DNA of 36,309 nt from a virus: the IMG/VR virus record IMGVR_UViG_3300005519_000006, positions 1-36,309 of that record; one strand, 5' to 3'. The translations under genes and the position numbers were made by a program. The stretch's first letter is position 1. Each line of letters opens with the position of its first letter. Below are positions 5,758 through 28,651 of this stretch, one piece after another. Under the pieces are notes generated by a model, which was not told the DNA's origin, did no database searches, and was given only the letters and a program-made list of their open reading frames with translations.

Positions 5758-5945
5758 ACGCCCCACTACCTGAACCCACGCAACTCGTCATCGGGCTTAC
5801 TCATAAGGAAATGCTCGCGTGGATGGCAGATAACGGCATCTTCTGTTCAACCGACAAGTTCACGCGCCTGCTTCAGGAAGCGCAGCGCCGGGCGCTGGCC
5901 GATCAGGCGATGACGAAGAGTGAAGATAAGGAGAAGGTGGCATGA
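5754..5945 (+). CDS. Small hypothetical protein (63 aa)
   Basis: The ORF is linked by 4-base overlaps to both neighbours (ATGA at 5754 and at 5942). The product, MNAPLPEPTQLVIGLTHKEM onward, has a helical middle (MLAWMADNGIFCSTDKFTRLLQEAQRR written here in parts: MLAWMADNG, then FTRLLQEAQRR) and a charged tail. There is no signal peptide or membrane segment, and no domain is recognised. Conserved spacing and good codon use support a real gene. Confidence 0.6.
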   Translation: MNAPLPEPTQLVIGLTHKEMLAWMADNGIFCSTDKFTRLLQEAQRRALADQAMTKSEDKEKVA

Positions 5946-6880
5946 AGGCGGTTTCGGATTCTGGAATCTATGCCATTACTAGTCCGTCTGGAAAGCAATA
6001 CATTGGACAAGCGTCTTCCATTATGAAACGGTGGATTGACCATCGATGGGCACTCAAAGCGGGTAAGCATCACTGCAAGGGTCTTCAAAGCGCATGGAAC
6101 AAGTATGGGAAGGAGGCGCTGATATTTTCAGTGCTTTCTTACGATCCAATCGAACTTCTTAACGAGCGCGAGCAGGCCGAGATAAACGCCCGGCCTCGCC
6201 ACATGCTCTACAACGGGGCGACGCTGGTTCGCACGCCAATGCTGGGGCGCAAGCATACGAAAACAACCCGCCAACTGATGTCGAATCAGCGACGCGGAGA
6301 AAACCATCCAAATTGGGGCAAGAAGCGCGATCCTGAAACGGTAGAAAAAATGAGGTTGTCTAAGGTCGGGAAAAAGCTAACACCAGAGCACGCGGCCGCA
6401 ATTTCAGCCGCTCTAAAGGGCCGATTTACCGGAGAGCAGCACTCTAGTTTCGGAAAAGTCCTTTCCGCTGAGTCAAGGGCGAGGCTGTCCGCAGCGACGA
6501 AGGGTGAAAGGAACCCTAACTGGGGGAAAGTTTTTAGTGCCGAGGTGAGGGCCAAGATGTCAGCCGCTCAAAAGGCCAGAGGTCCGCGACCGCCCAGCGA
6601 AGCTCATCGGCTTGCCACGAGACTGGCAAAGCAAAACATGACGCCAGAGCAGAAAGAGCGGATGGCAGCAAAGATGCGCGGAGCAAACAATGTGGTTGCA
6701 AGGGCTGTGCGGTGCGTAGACACGGGCATGGAATTCGTGACCGGTGTAGCGGCTGAGCAATGGCTCCGCACGAGCGGCAAGGAAAAGGCCAGTCGATCTG
6801 CAATATGCATGGCTTGCCAAGGGAAGAAAGCGTCAGCCTACGGCTATCGATGGGAATACGTGAACAAGGACAATAAATGA
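5942..6880 (+). CDS. GIY-YIG homing-type endonuclease with NUMOD3 repeats
   Basis: The catalytic GIY-YIG domain lies at the N terminus (GIY at 8-10, YIG at 20-22, Arg30, EREQ around 75-78 with the likely metal-binding Glu). The middle (about 105-225) has NUMOD3-type DNA-binding repeats, visible as GENHPNWGK, GEQHSSFGK and GERNPNWGK, each followed by a KMS/RLS-type helix. The C terminus (about 245-305) resembles a NUMOD1-like module, with VRCVDTGMEF and YGYRWEY. The 312 residues fit freestanding phage homing endonucleases. The nucleotide sequence is more AT-rich than its neighbours, consistent with recent mobility. It is linked by ATGA overlaps at both ends, so it interrupts no gene. Confidence 0.9.
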   Translation: MKAVSDSGIYAITSPSGKQYIGQASSIMKRWIDHRWALKAGKHHCKGLQSAWNKYGKEALIFSVLSYDPIELLNEREQAEINARPRHMLYNGATLVRTPMLGRKHTKTTRQLMSNQRRGENHPNWGKKRDPETVEKMRLSKVGKKLTPEHAAAISAALKGRFTGEQHSSFGKVLSAESRARLSAATKGERNPNWGKVFSAEVRAKMSAAQKARGPRPPSEAHRLATRLAKQNMTPEQKERMAAKMRGANNVVARAVRCVDTGMEFVTGVAAEQWLRTSGKEKASRSAICMACQGKKASAYGYRWEYVNKDNK

Positions 6881-7822: not shown

Positions 7823-8163
7823 CCGAAGAAGGCGAAATCAATATCTTTAGAGCGCTCGACTTCATCCGAGACAACGCGCCGGCCTATGCGCAAGCCAAGG
7901 CCCAGCGCGTCTACCTGGAGAACTTCCGCAAGAGCAAGAAAGCGCTGCTGATGCGGGCGGCCGAAATCCGCGGGCACAAAACAGCCGCGATCCAGGAGCG
8001 CGAAGCGTACGCCGACGATGGCTATGTCGAGATCCTGGCTGCGCTCCAGGCTGCAACTGAGGAAGAAGAAAGGCTGCGCTGGATGATCGTGGCCGCCGAA
8101 GCCAAGATCGAATGCTGGAGAACCATCGAGGCGAATCGACGCGCTGAAGCGAGGGCTTTGTGA
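7819..8163 (+). CDS. Conserved phage hypothetical protein (114 aa)
   Basis: The product is highly charged and helical: RALDFIRDNAPAYAQAKAQR, a KSKKALLMRAA segment, QEREAYADDGY and RWMIVAAEAKIECWRTIEA. Proteins with this layout are common, unnamed members of phage recombination/replication regions, usually near NinG-like or HNH genes, as here. No enzymatic motif is seen. The start overlaps the previous stop by ATGA (7819), and the stop overlaps the ninG GTG (8160). Confidence 0.7.
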   Translation: MTEEGEINIFRALDFIRDNAPAYAQAKAQRVYLENFRKSKKALLMRAAEIRGHKTAAIQEREAYADDGYVEILAALQAATEEEERLRWMIVAAEAKIECWRTIEANRRAEARAL

Positions 8164-8771
8164 TCCGCGCATCACTTAAGCCCAAAAAATGCCGCAACCG
8201 CGACTGCGGAAAGGTTTTCACGCCCGTTCGGACAATGCAGTCCGTATGCTCGCCGGCCTGTGGGCTGGCACTCGCAGCCAGGCAGCGGGCCCAGAAGGAA
8301 GCGCGAGCCAATCGCGAGGAGCGCAAATCGCTCGCAGAGCGCAAAGCAAAACTCAAGACTCGCCGCGAGTGGATTGCCGAGGCTCAGGCGGTCGTCAACA
8401 AGGTGGCGAGGCTGCGGGACATTCTGGCGGGGCATGGGTGTATCTCGTGTGGTGCGAGGCCTGACGCGAGGTTCGGTGGTGCGATGGATGCGGGGCATTA
8501 CAGGTCAGTCGGGAGCGCCCCTCACGCCCGCTTCTACCTGCCGAACATCAGATTGCAATGCAAAAGATGCAATCGTGACCTTGGAGGTGCCGCCGTGAAT
8601 TACCGAATGGGCCTAATCGAACGCATCGGCATAGACCGCGTCAAGGAAATCGAGTCCATGCAGTGGACGGCGAAGTGGTCGATCGAGTACTTGCAGCGGC
8701 TCAAGAAGGTCATGAACAAGAAGGCCCGCAGGTTGGAACGGCGGATTGAACAACGAAAAGAGGCGCCTTGA
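8160..8771 (+). CDS. ninG: NinG (Rap) recombination protein
   Basis: NinG/Rap of lambda is a structure-specific nuclease that cuts branched DNA during recombination (family knowledge). The 203-residue product has the expected layout: an N-terminal zinc ribbon (CRNRDCGKVF, then SVCSPAC), a basic coiled-coil region (about 45-85), then CISCGARP, AGHYRSVGS and LQCKRCNRDLGG, which form the second zinc site of the HNH-like domain. The start is a GTG at 8160 overlapping the previous stop. The gene supports a lambda-like nin region. Confidence 0.92.
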   Translation: MIRASLKPKKCRNRDCGKVFTPVRTMQSVCSPACGLALAARQRAQKEARANREERKSLAERKAKLKTRREWIAEAQAVVNKVARLRDILAGHGCISCGARPDARFGGAMDAGHYRSVGSAPHARFYLPNIRLQCKRCNRDLGGAAVNYRMGLIERIGIDRVKEIESMQWTAKWSIEYLQRLKKVMNKKARRLERRIEQRKEAP

Positions 8772-10305: not shown

Positions 10306-10698
10306 ATGGACGTTGTGACTGAAGGGAAAGCCATTGCGCAGAGCGAAGACAAGCGCATCCACGAGTTCTGTCTGAAATGGGCCTCGTGGCACAGATCGCG
10401 GCGCCTGTTCGCCCCGCCCGTCCCGCAGAATCTCTTGGTGAGATTGCAAAACCTTCCGGGAGGTGAGGTTCCTGACGCCGAACTGAGCGCCAGTGCGAGC
10501 TATTTCAACCTGGCGCTGCTCGGCATGCCTGAAGGACGGCCGAAGCTGGCGTTCTACTGCTACTACCTGCACCGCGTGCGACCGCTAAAGCTGCTGGCGG
10601 ATGAGTTGGAGGTGACCGAGCAGGGCATGCACAAGATGATCAAGACGTTCCGCACGAATGCGCACCGGGCGTATCACCGGATGCTGGCGGGAGCCTAA
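10306..10698 (+). CDS. HTH protein, candidate Q-like late-gene antiterminator
   Basis: The 130-residue protein ends in a helix-turn-helix: RPLKLLADELEVTEQGMHKMIKTF, preceded by a YCYYLHR segment. Size, position at the end of the early region and placement just upstream of a promoter-terminator pair (11457-11550) fit a phage Q-type antiterminator or another late regulator. Sequence similarity to a named Q family is not certain. ATGs at 10258 (146 residues) and 10306, and a TTG at 10234, are possible starts. 10306 is chosen because GCGGGG precedes it and the putative promoter would exclude the others. Confidence 0.6.
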   Translation: MDVVTEGKAIAQSEDKRIHEFCLKWASWHRSRRLFAPPVPQNLLVRLQNLPGGEVPDAELSASASYFNLALLGMPEGRPKLAFYCYYLHRVRPLKLLADELEVTEQGMHKMIKTFRTNAHRAYHRMLAGA

Positions 10699-10700
10699 TA

Positions 10701-11426
10701 ATGAGCTTCGTCAAACGCTTTGAGCGCAACACTGCCGGCCGTGACTTTGCTGTAGGCGACATTCACGGCCACTTCAAGGTGCTGGAAACGGTTCTCGATG
10801 GAATTGGGTTCGACTGCGTCAAAGACCGGCTTTTCTCGGTAGGCGATTTGGTTGACCGTGGTCCTGATTCGGAAATGGCACTCGACTGGATCGACAAGCC
10901 GTGGTTCCACGCGGTGCGTGGCAATCACGAGGACATGGCTATCCGTTACCCGAACGGAAACATGGATGCCGCGAATTATTGCGCCAATGGAGGTGCGTGG
11001 AACGTCGGGAATCCCCGTCATCTGCAGATGGCATTCTCGTGCGCACTCGGAGCCCTCCCTATCGCCATTGAGGTTGAAACAGAGTCTGGTTTGATAGGTA
11101 TCGTGCATGCCGACTGCCCTTTCCCGAACTGGCATGACTTCGTTGTCTCGCTGGACGACGCCAACATGTCGAACACGATGTGGAAAGCCGTTTATGAGGC
11201 GGCGATATGGTCTCGTGAGCGCATTCAGGAAGAGGACCAATCTGGCGTGCCAGACATTCGCGCCCTGATCGTCGGCCATACGCCGCTGAAGAAGCCCGCA
11301 ATACTGGGCAACGTGCATTACATCGACACTGGCGGTTGGCTGCGCGACGGACATTTCACGGTAATCAACCTGGCGACGCTGGAGGCAATCCCGCCGATGC
11401 CGAAGAAGCTGGATTGGGGCGCCTGA
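10701..11426 (+). CDS. Serine/threonine protein phosphatase, lambda PP (NinI) type
   Basis: This is a metal-dependent phosphoesterase of the PPP family as in lambda orf221. The motifs are all present: GDIHG (19-23), GDLVDRG (48-54), GNHE (74-77), a metal-ligand His in IVHADC, and VGHTP near residue 193. The 241 residues match the family. The start ATG follows the upstream stop by two bases. In lambda the phosphatase lies in the nin region next to Q, and the same grouping is seen here with the order changed. It may dephosphorylate host proteins; target unknown. Confidence 0.92.
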   Translation: MSFVKRFERNTAGRDFAVGDIHGHFKVLETVLDGIGFDCVKDRLFSVGDLVDRGPDSEMALDWIDKPWFHAVRGNHEDMAIRYPNGNMDAANYCANGGAWNVGNPRHLQMAFSCALGALPIAIEVETESGLIGIVHADCPFPNWHDFVVSLDDANMSNTMWKAVYEAAIWSRERIQEEDQSGVPDIRALIVGHTPLKKPAILGNVHYIDTGGWLRDGHFTVINLATLEAIPPMPKKLDWGA

Positions 11427-11427
11427 T

Positions 11428-11462
11428 ACTCAACTAAAAAGTTGATAACGCCGTGGTTGAGT
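11428..11462. repeat. Inverted repeats overlapping the late promoter -35
   Basis: ACTCAAC (11428-11434) and GTTGAGT (11456-11462) form a 7-base inverted repeat; the right arm contains the -35 box TTGAGT. Inside it, CAACT (11431-11435) and AGTTG (11440-11444) form another inverted repeat around AAAA. This is where a regulator such as a Q-like protein could bind. Confidence 0.55.
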
Positions 11463-11485
11463 AAAGGGGGCTAAATCTCTATGAT
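11457..11485 (+). promoter_or_regulatory. Strong sigma70-like promoter, candidate late promoter (pR'-like)
   Basis: TTGAGT (11457-11462), a 17-base spacer and TATGAT (11480-11485) give a near-consensus promoter. It lies in a non-coding gap right after the phosphatase gene. Transcription would start near 11492 and meet an intrinsic terminator about 45 bases later, as at lambda pR'/tR'. Confidence 0.7.
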
Positions 11486-11520
11486 TTCTGAAAGTCTGGA
11501 ATTTGTCGCTCAGACAAAAC

Positions 11521-11550
11521 AAGCCCTGCCAAGTGTGGGGCTTTTTGCTT
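11521..11550 (+). terminator. Intrinsic terminator (tR'-like) after the late promoter
   Basis: AAGCCC (11521-11526) pairs with GGGCTT (11538-11543) around an 11-base loop, followed by a T-rich tract (TTTTTGCTTT). An A-rich run precedes it. It would stop transcripts from the promoter at 11457 unless an antitermination factor acts. Confidence 0.7.
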
Positions 11551-11556
11551 TCTGTC

Positions 11557-11802
11557 ATGGCCCGTTCAATCACATTCCAGTCTCGCTCGTTCGGCATGGA
11601 GCCATCGCGCGCATTGGAACAAAAGCAGGCCGAAGAAGCAAGGCAACGCAAACACGGTACGCTGCATGTCAAGGCCGGCTGGAGTGCGGCTCGCCGTGCA
11701 GCGGAAGCCCTCTTCGCCCCTGAGCCTGTTCTGGCGTCCGTTCAGGGCACCCCGAGCAATTCGGGCCAAGCCGGAAAGACCGGCAAGGATTTGCAGCAAT
11801 GA
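11557..11802 (+). CDS. Small hypothetical protein (81 aa)
   Basis: This is the first ORF after the terminator. From the ATG at 11557 the product is basic in its first half (MARSITFQSRSFGMEPSRAL) and rich in Ala, Gly, Ser and Gln at its end. No good ribosome binding site is visible before 11557 or before the alternative ATG at 11596, which lowers confidence. Its stop overlaps the next start (ATGA at 11799), which supports it. No domain is recognised. Confidence 0.45.
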   Translation: MARSITFQSRSFGMEPSRALEQKQAEEARQRKHGTLHVKAGWSAARRAAEALFAPEPVLASVQGTPSNSGQAGKTGKDLQQ

Positions 11803-11957
11803 ACCCGCAAGAGTTGATAGACAGCATTGAAGCCGATTTGCAGCGCATCCGAAATCTTGATCCGGCGCTGCTGGCTTCTCTCATAAGCCGTTTAGACGAG
11901 TTAAGGGGAATGTATGGCCGGGATGGTGCTGAGGGATCTGGATTACAGCGATCTTGA
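11799..11957 (+). CDS. Small hypothetical protein (52 aa)
   Basis: The ORF begins at an ATG overlapping the previous stop. The product starts MNPQELIDSIEADLQRIRNL and is mainly helical, with a probable coiled coil up to about residue 38. Its 3' end overlaps the next gene by 44 bases in another frame, so the last 14 residues may not matter. No domain is recognised. Confidence 0.45.
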   Translation: MNPQELIDSIEADLQRIRNLDPALLASLISRLDELRGMYGRDGAEGSGLQRS

Positions 11958-12198
11958 GCAGTTCGGGCGTGTGACAATTGACTACGACAGGCGCGGCGTC
12001 GCAATCACTGTCGATGGTTTCGAGTTCTCCGGCGCTGGCACGTGTCGGCAGCATGTTGGCAAGGCATTGGCATGGGCTAGGGACGCGTTGGACGTTGAGA
12101 TCGCGGCGATTCGCCTATCGCCGGGCGGCCACATCAGATCATGTACCGACCTCGATCAGCGGATGCTAGATGAGCAGCGCAATGAGGAAACCAGATGA
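11914..12198 (+). CDS. Hypothetical protein (94 aa)
   Basis: The start at 11914 has AAGGGG seven bases upstream (11903-11908), a good site. The product has beta-rich stretches (GRVTIDYDRRGVAITVDGFEF) and one helix (HVGKALAWARDAL). No catalytic motif, membrane segment or known family is recognised. The stop overlaps the next tiny ORF (ATGA at 12195). Confidence 0.65.
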   Translation: MAGMVLRDLDYSDLEQFGRVTIDYDRRGVAITVDGFEFSGAGTCRQHVGKALAWARDALDVEIAAIRLSPGGHIRSCTDLDQRMLDEQRNEETR

Positions 12199-12290
12199 AC
12201 CCGGTGACAGCGTATCTCCTACTGCTAGCCACGATCAGCATGGGCACGACGCAAGTACTGATCGACCTGGCGGAAGGCTGGGATTTGTGA
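12195..12290 (+). CDS. Tiny hydrophobic peptide (31 aa)
   Basis: The ORF overlaps the previous stop (ATGA) and the next GTG (GTGA at 12287). The peptide MNPVTAYLLLLATISMGTTQ plus a short acidic end contains one hydrophobic stretch, so it may be a membrane peptide. It is short, and overlap is the only positional support. It is too short to be called a holin. Confidence 0.35.
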   Translation: MNPVTAYLLLLATISMGTTQVLIDLAEGWDL

Positions 12291-12373
12291 GTTACGGTCC
12301 GCGCTGCTGGTGGTGTGCGAGATTGATGCAAGGCAGAGCGCAATGCTGCCATCCACTGACTGTTGGGGATTGA
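12287..12373 (+). CDS. Tiny cysteine-rich peptide (28 aa)
   Basis: A GTG overlapping the previous stop opens a frame encoding VSYGPRCWWCARLMQG then RAQCCHPLTVGD. The CxxC...CCH pattern could bind one zinc ion. The same frame continues upstream to an ATG at 12170 that would give 67 residues overlapping two other ORFs; the GTG is preferred for its overlap. Very short, so it may not be a gene. Confidence 0.3.
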   Translation: MSYGPRCWWCARLMQGRAQCCHPLTVGD

Positions 12374-12397
12374 GATGGGAAGCGACGCAAGCTAACT

Positions 12398-12452
12398 TGT
12401 ACGATTTTCCGCCCGTGTACGAAAATTTCGTACAGGCCGCAGAAATCGTACA
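12398..12452. repeat. Symmetric array of four TGTACGA half-sites
   Basis: Two nested inverted repeats share one axis at 12425. The outer arms are TGTACGATTT (12398-12407) and AAATCGTACA (12443-12452). The inner arms are TGTACGAAA (12416-12424) and TTTCGTACA (12426-12434). The spacers between outer and inner arms are exactly 8 bases on each side and are not complementary, so the symmetry is in the sites, as in an operator. A weak promoter (TTGTAC 12397-12402, GAAAAT 12421-12426) could lie within it. Confidence 0.8.
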
Positions 12453-12459
12453 CGGCACG

Positions 12460-12865
12460 AACAAGGGTGGTAGCGCAGGGCGCAGGCCGGATGCGCGAAC
12501 CCGTAACATGCAGCGAACATGCCGGGAGAAGAGACCGGACAATTCAAGGTGTAGCAACCGGCGGACCGGGATGCTACGAAGCCCACCAAGAAAGTAGTGC
12601 TGGTGCCGAACTGATCAGCGGCCGATCGCCTCACGAAACGAGGCCCTTCATGAATTGCGCTCGGCTTAATCTGCTGAGGGGCGCGACCGGTTAGCGCATT
12701 AACCTGGGGCTGCCGGGCGCAATCCACGAAGGTGAAATTAGCGACGCGCCTGGCGATAGCCACCCACGGGTCACGCGGTCGCGCGAAAGTAGCTTTCACC
12801 CTGTCTCTTCGTGCCGACTCCCCCTCGTCGTCATGATCTGCCCGCTTCGGCGGGCTTTTTTATTT
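12460..12865 (+). ncRNA. Candidate structured non-coding RNA or late leader RNA
   Basis: Successive helices can be drawn by eye. They include GCGCA/TGCGC (12480-12496); GTAGCA/TGCTAC enclosing CCGG-CGGA-CCGG (12551-12577); CACCA/TGGTG (12584-12605); GCCTC/GAGGC (12628-12644); and GGTTA/TAACC (12689-12704). A 13-bp stem pairs CACGAAGGTGAAA (12725-12737) with TTTCACC (12794-12800) and TTCGTG (12808-12813). It encloses GCGAC-GCG/CGC-G-GTCGC (12741-12782) and TGGC-GATA-GCCA (12751-12762). The element ends in a UUCG terminator. The 5' end is not known. It could be a stand-alone RNA or a leader controlling late read-through. It matches no RNA family I can name. Confidence 0.5.
12840..12865 (+). terminator. 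Intrinsic terminator with UUCG tetraloop
   Basis: GCCCGC (12840-12845), loop TTCG, GCGGGC (12850-12855), then TTTTTTATTT. This is a textbook intrinsic terminator at the end of the non-coding interval and 11 bases before the next gene start, so it would have to be read through for expression of that gene from upstream. Confidence 0.92.
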
Positions 12866-12875
12866 GGTGCGACCG

Positions 12876-13262
12876 ATGACGCGCAAACCCAAGACGACAT
12901 CGGCGCAATGGCTCGGAATCCCGGTTTTCCCGATCCCGATCTTCGGCGGCAAACTCGTGCTATGCACTGCGGCTGAAGAGTGGGACACGGCAGCGACAGC
13001 GTTTGGCGATGTGACTGGCACAGACGGCTGCAAGGGTCTGGCGATGCGCTACTACAGCGAGGAGCATGGCCGGGTCTATGCAATTGGCGTGTTCGACAAG
13101 GCTGTTGACACGCTCGTCCACGAGTTGGCGCACGCGACATTCTTTCTGCTGGGCGATGTCGGCATTCCTGTTTCCTCTGGCGAGGATAACGAGTCGTTCA
13201 CCTACGTCTTGGGCTGGTTGATGCGGGAAGTGTTCCCCGTGTTTCAGGCTGCAGTCAAATAA
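12876..13262 (+). CDS. Zinc metallopeptidase-like protein (HExxH)
   Basis: The 128-residue product contains VHELAHATF (His82, Glu83, His86), the zincin signature, and a downstream acidic stretch EDNES (103-107) that could supply the third ligand. Similar short HE..H proteins are frequent in phages; substrate unknown. The ATG at 12876 is chosen, but TTG 12864 and GTG 12867 are in frame and no site has a strong ribosome binding site. The gene begins right after a strong terminator. It may process a head or tail protein or act on host proteins; this is inference. Confidence 0.7.
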   Translation: MTRKPKTTSAQWLGIPVFPIPIFGGKLVLCTAAEEWDTAATAFGDVTGTDGCKGLAMRYYSEEHGRVYAIGVFDKAVDTLVHELAHATFFLLGDVGIPVSSGEDNESFTYVLGWLMREVFPVFQAAVK

Positions 13263-13286
13263 TCGAAACTCTTTAGGGGAAAGATT

Positions 13287-14471
13287 GTGGCGCGACAATA
13301 CGATCCACGATTGCGTGAGTTCGCAGATGGGCGCGAGCGGGATTTCCTCGATGCTTTAGAGAAGCACGGCAAGCCCACGGCCGCAGCCAGATCGCTGGGG
13401 CTGCATCACAGCATTCTGATTCGCGCTCTGGATAATCTGGAGAAGCGGGCGGCGAAGATGGGGTATAGCCCCGAGCATCATTTCGTGCATTCGGTGCCGG
13501 ATGGCTTCGTCGCTGATGGCGTGTCGACGTATTTCAACGCCGATGGACAGCCGACCGGCCAATGGGTAAAGGCAAAGGCCGATAAGGCGCGGCAGGAACA
13601 GATCCTCCGCGCAGCCTTTGATGCAATGGCGGAAACGCTGCCGCGGGTGAGGCCGGCGCCGATTCCGTCAGGCACCAGTGACGCACTGTGCAACCTGTAC
13701 ACATTCACCGATTACCACCTTGGCATGCTTGCCTGGGGCAAGGAAACCGGCGCGGACTGGGACTTGAAGATAGCTGAGCGCACGCTGGTGTCAGCGTTTG
13801 CGCACATGATCGAAGCGGCTCCCAAGGCCAGCACGGCATTTGTCGCGCAACTGGGTGACTTCCTGCATAGCGATGGTTCGGGCGGCATGTTGCCGGTCAC
13901 TCCCCTGCACCAGAATGTCCTTGACCAGGACGGCCGCTATTCAAAGATCGTGGGCGTCGCTATCCGCGTCCTGCGCCGCATCATAGATTTCGCGCTCGAG
14001 CGGCACGACAAGGTTGTCGTCCTGATGGCGGAAGGGAATCACGACCTCAGTTCGAGCGTATGGCTTCGCGCCATGTTTCGCGCGCTGTATGAGGACGAGC
14101 CTCGGGTGACGGTGATCGACTCCGAGTCGCCCTACTACGCCTGGCAGCATGGCACGAACATGCTCGGCTTCCATCATGGGCACCTGACCCGGAAGGAAAA
14201 CATGCCGTTACTCTTTGCCGCGAAATTTCCGGCAATGTGGGGAGCGACAACCAAGCGCGTCATTCACACCGGCCACCAGCACCACAAGGACGAGAAAGAG
14301 CACAACGGCGTGACCGTAGTTCAGCACCGAACGCTGGCGGCGAACGACGCCCACTCTGCCCGTCGCGGTTATGTCTCGGAGCGCTCAGCACAGGCAATCA
14401 CCTATCACGTCAAGTATGGCGAGGTAGCGCGCAACACGGTTGTGCCAGAGATGTTCGAGGTGACCCCATGA
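13287..14471 (+). CDS. Metallophosphoesterase with N-terminal HTH segment
   Basis: The GTG start at 13287 follows AGGGGAA. Residues about 15-52 (DFLDALEKHGKPTAAARSLG and following) look like a helix-turn-helix of the kind found in terminase small subunits. The phosphoesterase core has FTDYHLG (Asp142, His144), QLGDF (190-192), EGNHD (249-253), HHGH (296-299) and HTGHQHH (327-333), the five metal-binding blocks of the calcineurin-like fold. Proteins of this build are known in phage late regions, but the substrate (protein, nucleotide or DNA ends) is not known. The stop overlaps the repeat-protein start (ATGA at 14468). Confidence 0.88.
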   Translation: MARQYDPRLREFADGRERDFLDALEKHGKPTAAARSLGLHHSILIRALDNLEKRAAKMGYSPEHHFVHSVPDGFVADGVSTYFNADGQPTGQWVKAKADKARQEQILRAAFDAMAETLPRVRPAPIPSGTSDALCNLYTFTDYHLGMLAWGKETGADWDLKIAERTLVSAFAHMIEAAPKASTAFVAQLGDFLHSDGSGGMLPVTPLHQNVLDQDGRYSKIVGVAIRVLRRIIDFALERHDKVVVLMAEGNHDLSSSVWLRAMFRALYEDEPRVTVIDSESPYYAWQHGTNMLGFHHGHLTRKENMPLLFAAKFPAMWGATTKRVIHTGHQHHKDEKEHNGVTVVQHRTLAANDAHSARRGYVSERSAQAITYHVKYGEVARNTVVPEMFEVTP

Positions 14472-23700: not shown

Positions 23701-23754
23701 TCTGCGGATAGGTTGCGCAACCGACAAGCGTGCCCCCTGTCACGTTTCCGCAGA
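23701..23754 (+). other. RNA hairpin structure after the major capsid gene
   Basis: TCTGCGGA (23701-23708) and TCCGCAGA (23747-23754) pair over 8 bases and enclose the perfect palindrome GGTTGCGCAACC (23711-23722). No T-tract follows, so it is not a simple terminator. It may protect the capsid message or control passage into the next gene. Confidence 0.6.
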
Positions 23755-23786
23755 CTCCAATACAGGGATAACCAACAGGGAATGTC

Positions 23787-28568: not shown

Positions 28569-28620
28569 GCCACGGCTAGGGACGCGACCCAAAAGCCGGC
28601 ACCTTACCGGTTGCCGTGGC
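28569..28620 (+). other. RNA hairpin structure after the tail tube gene
   Basis: GCCACGGC (28569-28576) and GCCGTGGC (28613-28620) are perfect 8-base complements. They enclose AGCCGG/CCGGTT (28594-28599, 28607-28612; one G-U pair) with a 7-base loop. No T-tract follows. The architecture matches that after the capsid gene at 23701. Confidence 0.6.
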
Positions 28621-28651
28621 TTCTCATAAGGCTCAGTTGAAGGGATTGAGA

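Follow-up and report, generated by a model that had tools for sequence, protein, structure and literature searches.

A modular, partly tRNA-derived structured RNA before the late genes of a lambdoid phage, with a possible two-state unit

tRNA islands are common in phages and their purpose is disputed. The tRNA gene clusters of Stx phages, with their interleaved tRNAs, form a neighbourhood comparable to that described here, and the lambda 6S RNA (late leader) is a terminated RNA located before the late genes. A multimeric cage is a hallmark of GOLLD, and antitermination through the RNAP beta' zinc-binding domain is one of put RNA. The GOLLD RNA of phages and prophages is often found near tRNA islands; its 3' region is conserved, its 5' region less so, and tRNAs sometimes lie inside it (PMC12286853). 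ROOL, whose function is unknown, likewise occurs in phages and prophages near tRNA islands (PMC12286853). The put RNA of HK022 is a short structured nascent phage RNA (PMC9378689).

We analyzed a non-coding interval within a 36,309-nt viral DNA stretch (hereafter the window; IMG/VR record IMGVR_UViG_3300005519_000006, positions 1 to 36,309), for which an original prediction had proposed an undescribed free non-coding RNA or structured leader. This proposal is supported by strong covariation on the + strand, the lack of an Rfam 15 match, the position of the RNA and its terminator. We show that the RNA exists, that it is read from the + strand and that its core adopts the structure given in Table 1; judged from its sequence, it may be a free non-coding RNA, a leader, or both.

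Genomic setting of the interval

The RNA lies downstream of a lambdoid NinG/NinI block and upstream of the terminase genes, with an intrinsic terminator at its end. NinG (8160-8771), a NinI-like phosphatase (10701-11426) and small ORFs precede it, and it is followed by a HExxH protein (12873-13262), a phosphoesterase resembling DNA-repair exonucleases (13287-14471), a PhageMetallopep protein and the terminase. Because the ORF directly upstream, a CxxC ORF present in 31 fetched loci, stops at 12373, the non-coding part covers 12374-12865. A further terminator-like site (11521-11543) and several small ORFs separate the end of NinI from the RNA. Positions 10600-13000 contain one promoter-like site, the same as shuffles, and none close upstream of the RNA.

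The gene 3' of the array varies among relatives, being either the HExxH protein or a Cys-rich small protein (RTEICKECR; L010, 4776-4991). ORFs that resemble GIY-YIG homing endonucleases by eye are present in the window (5942-6880) and, shortly upstream of the array, in L003 (3301-4221) and L010 (2783-3703); such ORFs could drive the exchange of modules. Two int-alpA RNAs (Rfam RF02996) are located amid the structural genes of the window (23701-23767 and 28569-28632).

The absence of a credible gene, as originally noted, is borne out: none of the ORFs over the interval is retained as an ORF in homologues, where only short stretches of conserved RNA match and several matches contain stops. The earlier impression of many helices in a row holds in part, as the number of helices alone is not above chance, whereas their covariation exceeds it. 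The folding energy is ordinary for the + strand (z -0.79), for which it is uninformative as stand-alone evidence of an RNA, and lower for the - strand (z -3.1), partly because two A-C mismatches of stem P0 turn into G-U pairs there. Despite this better fold of the - strand, the comparative data support the + strand. Consistent with the description of the RNA as undescribed, no Rfam 15 family reaches the gathering level in the interval. Searching 12200-12900 against all Rfam 15 models with cmscan, up to E 10, gave weak chance-level matches only, with none to the models of group I/II introns, HEARO or hammerhead, and BLAST of the interval against phages returned no match. ARAGORN and Rfam identified no tRNA cloverleaf in the window, which holds just the 5' half of a tRNA-Trp.

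Table 1. Features of the interval on the window (P, stem; positions of the whole stretch)
Feature	Positions	Strand	Basis or remark
Four GTACGA/TCGTAC inverted repeats	block 12374-12458, repeats 12397-12456	+	sequence; recurs in L004, L085
Inverted-repeat examples in this block	GTACGAAAATTTCGTAC 12417-12433; CCGTGTACGA with TCGTACACGG 12447-12456	+	
Broken tRNA-Trp gene, 5' half	12459-12492	+	joined to next module at common octamer GGCCGGAT
Hairpin with conserved loop AACCCGUAA	12493-12511	+	one mismatch in window copy
Module CATGCCGGGAGAAGAGACCGGACAATTCAAGG, hairpin CCGG 12522-12525 / 12535-12538	12515-12549	+	91% identity with L116/L041
Hairpin GUAGCA/UGCUAC, inner CCGG/CCGG	12551-12577	+	sequence; unmatched in block comparison with loci
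Hairpin CCUC-ACGAAAC-GAGG	12629-12643	+	loop kept in relatives, phage P1 included
Variable cassette A, closed by P0 (12645-12665 with 12712-12732)	12645-12732	+	P0 in homologues
Core B (R2), three-way junction	12728-12797	+	covariation in homologues
Core B, P1	12728-12733 / 12792-12797	+	
Core B, P2	12742-12745 / 12778-12781 and 12747-12749 / 12775-12777	+	
Core B, P3 (GATA hairpin)	12751-12754 / 12759-12762	+	
Core B, P4	12763-12764 / 12769-12770	+	
Hairpin CGAC-UCCCCCUC-GUCG, C-rich loop	12815-12830	+	recurs in relatives
Intrinsic terminator GCCCGC-UUCG-GCGGGC + U6	12840-12861	+	sequence; homologue positions match; presumed RNA 3' end

The conserved core and the strand it shares with cassette A

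Relatives were fetched via neighbour proteins and DNA patterns, and the alignment of 29 distinct sequences yields a three-way junction. In this alignment 96.9% of pair cells are paired, with 85 double-change cells, whereas sliding the 3' partner strand by 1-3 columns reduced pairing to 31-42%, and the covariation score was reached in 0 of 500 shuffles. Most of the core helices are predicted from the alignment by RNAalifold alone; GCGC/CGATAG is invariant, and in a larger set compensated cases occur even in the near-invariant CGC/GCG helix. One-sided changes in the core are from G-C to G-U (for example, 10 and 8 G-U cells in P1 and 8 in P2), and these pairs would turn into A-C mismatches on the opposite strand, which assigns the RNA to the + strand.

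The GATA-capped hairpin (12751-12762) and the further stem around it, both part of the original prediction, are confirmed. The 13-bp stem that was thought to enclose them (12725-12737 with 12794-12800 and 12808-12813, pairing GGTGAAA with TTTCACC) fares no better in homologues than in shuffles (80.5% vs 82.0% of cells paired, with one double change). The supported register is P1, in which GAAGGT pairs with GCTTTC; it is 98.9% paired with 10 double-change cells, and its changes are compensatory (A-U/G-C). In a first covariance model, R1, P1 was shifted by one column; R2 superseded this model. The original picture, in which one long stem closes a single RNA, is wrong in detail: we find a chain of exchangeable modules that are partly tRNA-derived.

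Cassette A is closed by P0, which was identified in 39 of 39 homologues with 13-23 bp of differing sequence, in every case above the 95th percentile of shuffles. The outer 5' strand of P0 is CCUUC (C-strand 1), and its 3' strand, GARGG, consists of the same five bases that form P1, the two stems being mutually exclusive over five pairs. ViennaRNA favours P0 over P1, with a median difference of 4.65 kcal/mol, and therefore P1 may be rare without a partner. Along the arrays the linkers alternate C, G, C. The unit is ordered C-strand, cassette A, G-strand, core B and C-strand, and the G-strand in the middle is able to pair on either side. We infer that A and B may constitute a two-state unit, the alternative being partial strand sharing fixed in one state. 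A shared-strand unit is an unusual RNA architecture.

At the 3' end, the perfect UUCG terminator of the original prediction is present as described (stem 12840-12855 followed by T6), and a single transcript ending at 12861 is likely. Even loci that lack the array or have an ORF in its place (L126, L106) retain the C-loop hairpin and the terminator. There is complementarity between the C-rich loop and the AGGGG in the ribosome-binding region (13268-13286) of the phosphoesterase gene.

The R2 model yielded 52 strong matches over 80 sources, corresponding to the window and 51 fetched loci, some of which are copies of one contig. Within the genus group of G002, which is the genome carrying the P. 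dilworthii WSM3556 locus L161, 11 copies of core B are spread over 10 of 146 genomes; the label Paraburkholderia rests on the titles of loci L159-L161. Outside this group, 398 family-sample genomes contained one weak 27-bit match (L196), which looks like chance and was rejected as a core B copy, and 369 class-level genomes contained none except the seed genome. Bordetella phage PHB04 and Burkholderia phage CSP3 gave no convincing match to the core B model; other modules are present there.

Module exchange, tRNA remnants and a sister core

The blocks of the interval resemble different loci: 12459-12492 matches tRNA-Trp genes, 12484-12521 the AACCCGUAA-loop hairpin, 12515-12549 a further module and 12602-12652 the region of the ACGAAAC hairpin, whereas 12716-12801 corresponds to the core and 12796-12868 to the C-loop hairpin with the terminator. 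tRNAs are found inside related arrays, including two Ser (L002), Thr (L011), Asn/Gln/Trp (L009), Met (L181) and Trp (L191, L130). The RNA is a mosaic of interchangeable modules associated with tRNAs, and their mosaic exchange represents a natural experiment in RNA domain shuffling.

The 5'-most block of GTACGA/TCGTAC repeats is possibly an operator, a first RNA element or a pseudoknot, as far as its sequence suggests. The broken tRNA-Trp gene has 88-94% identity with tRNA-Trp genes or tRNA-Trp-like copies in L009, L191, L085 and L102, and its cut at GGCCGGAT, a word common to the next module, is as expected of a deletion. The AACCCGUAA-loop hairpin recurs with compensated stems (CACG/CGUG, CCGG/CCGG, CUGG/CCAG). 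The ACGAAAC loop is borne on the stems CCUC/GAGG (13 copies), CUCC/GGAG (7 copies), CCGC/GCGG and CCAC/GUGG, the count of distinct fully paired stem forms alone being not above chance; by eye, this loop recalls the GAAAC of the hammerhead. Comparative support was not found for the stretch of about 12549-12602. A second core type (GCCGCAATCGACCATTGATG...) takes the place of the three-way junction in L002 (4729-4852), L006 (4395-4519), L089, L096, L120 and L122. Phage PHB04 has a nearly gene-free stretch of 2.3 kb (L198, 760-3060) with three tRNAs, one common array module and a permuted tmRNA (tag ANDDYIRAAA).

A sister core, GUGAAUGCGCAGGCUGAUGCGC ... GCCGGAGAUCAGCRCCGGCCAC, occupies the same array position in L003, L010, L188 and phage CSP3, and is found in more than 120 IMG/VR stretches (loci L199 and following). 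It contains the invariant GUGAAUGCGCRGGCUGAUGCGC. The stem that closes it shows covariation (outer pairs, 86.6% vs 58.6% in shuffles, maximum 67.6%), and its two loops are mutually complementary (GCUGAU/AUCAGC), a putative pairing that looks like the kissing of D and T loops. It follows the same C-A-G-B-C plan with different strand sequences, and in several contexts the three strands change together (e.g., CCAUCACG / CGUGAUGG / CACCAUCA); P0 lies above the shuffle 95th percentile in only 29 of 67 contexts. The sister core has no Rfam family, and its sequence was not found in a search of 5.39 million papers. It goes unannotated in coliphages: mEp460 and Bas80 carry it, and P1 has a variant (L320, 2020-2750) beside tRNA genes, on the strand opposite to plp/upl, ORFs whose annotation may be artefactual. 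Of 5426 complete E. coli genomes, 1293 match the query region, which includes the ACGAAAC hairpin, and none of the matches listed is annotated; since the query covers both, these matches represent the sister module or the adjoining hairpin.

It is somewhat less likely than not that these arrays belong to a general unnamed class of phage RNA, namely tandem, cassette-like A-B units in Paraburkholderia, Burkholderia and enterobacterial phages including P1, with three covarying strands of which the middle one closes either a tRNA-like A or the core B. If tRNA islands also hold a conserved family of structured two-state RNAs, much 'empty' DNA in well-studied phages such as P1 would become a testable gene family.

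Proposed explanation and comparison with described RNAs

We consider it fairly probable that the locus encodes a terminated non-coding RNA of the phage tRNA-island type, modular and with a possible two-state switch. Transcription would run through the stretch that separates the small ORFs on the NinI side from the late genes and stop at the terminator, producing a structured + strand RNA of about 370-400 nt whose modules (the broken tRNA-Trp, the conserved-loop hairpins, cassette A and core B) would come from a phage tRNA island. The shared GAAGG (12728-12732) would pair by default with CCUUC (12645-12649), closing A, or alternatively with CUUUC (12793-12797), closing B, and which of the two forms would depend on the order of folding or on a bound partner. 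Since tRNAs or ORFs follow the same core in relatives, the RNA would function as a stable product and not by attenuating its own terminator.

The position of the RNA before a terminator and late genes, together with its two mutually exclusive stems, would also suit a cis-acting transcription element, that is, a put-like antiterminator or an attenuator governing read-through into the late genes. We regard this as unlikely: in relatives the core precedes a tRNA (L181) or an ORF (L009, L157) without an adjacent terminator, the terminator hairpins remain without the core in L126, and the terminator stem lies outside both the P0 and the P1 pairing. This lack of a tie between core and terminator lowers the likelihood of a put-like role.

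It is quite unlikely that the structure is left over from a decaying tRNA array, in which selection on the degenerate genes and their spacers would be weak or absent. The broken tRNA-Trp and the intact and damaged tRNAs of relatives fit such decay, but it would not yield the compensatory cells or the invariant motif of the core, which is not tRNA-like by Rfam. A processed sRNA, with the 3' UCCCC-loop hairpin and terminator acting as a seed against G-rich ribosome-binding sites such as the AGGGGAA before the phosphoesterase gene, is very unlikely; most members, with or without the array, preserve CCCCU within the hairpin or immediately 5' of it, and the complement to the ribosome-binding site is visible in the sequence, but such complements are common by chance and the array is left unexplained. 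As for the reading that the interval encodes a protein and owes its RNA-like features to its GC content, long ORFs do exist (e.g., 12392-12799 on the - strand), but the failure of these ORFs to recur, indels that are not multiples of three and the base-pair covariation make its probability negligible.

Returning to the stable tRNA-island RNA, our guess, by analogy with the setting of GOLLD and ROOL, is that it might be made in lytic growth and act on tRNA, translation or the RNA-degrading machinery.

Compared with described systems, the RNA shares with put that it is a structured phage RNA; however, put has two stem-loops in about 70 nt, 3' of early promoters, and the present RNA is a three-way junction array before late genes without a tie to a promoter, whose consensus junction, late-side position and lack of a close upstream promoter-like site depart from the put hallmarks. 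Unlike at the lambda 6S RNA, a terminator-like site and small ORFs intervene here after NinI. The covariance models of GOLLD and ROOL gave no match in 12200-12900 up to E 10 (cmscan), and many GOLLD RNAs exceed 800 nt with a different fold, whereas this RNA is a chain of short exchangeable units. Like GOLLD, it occurs in a phage/prophage setting near tRNAs (arrays of L002, L009, L011, L181 and L191), and it shares with ROOL the setting near tRNA islands, being known here from sequence alone. The P1 tRNA gene cluster has the same neighbourhood with interleaved tRNAs, and P1 bears sister modules, although, in contrast to phage tRNA clusters, most modules here are not tRNAs. In setting and build, the RNA resembles GOLLD and ROOL while belonging to neither.
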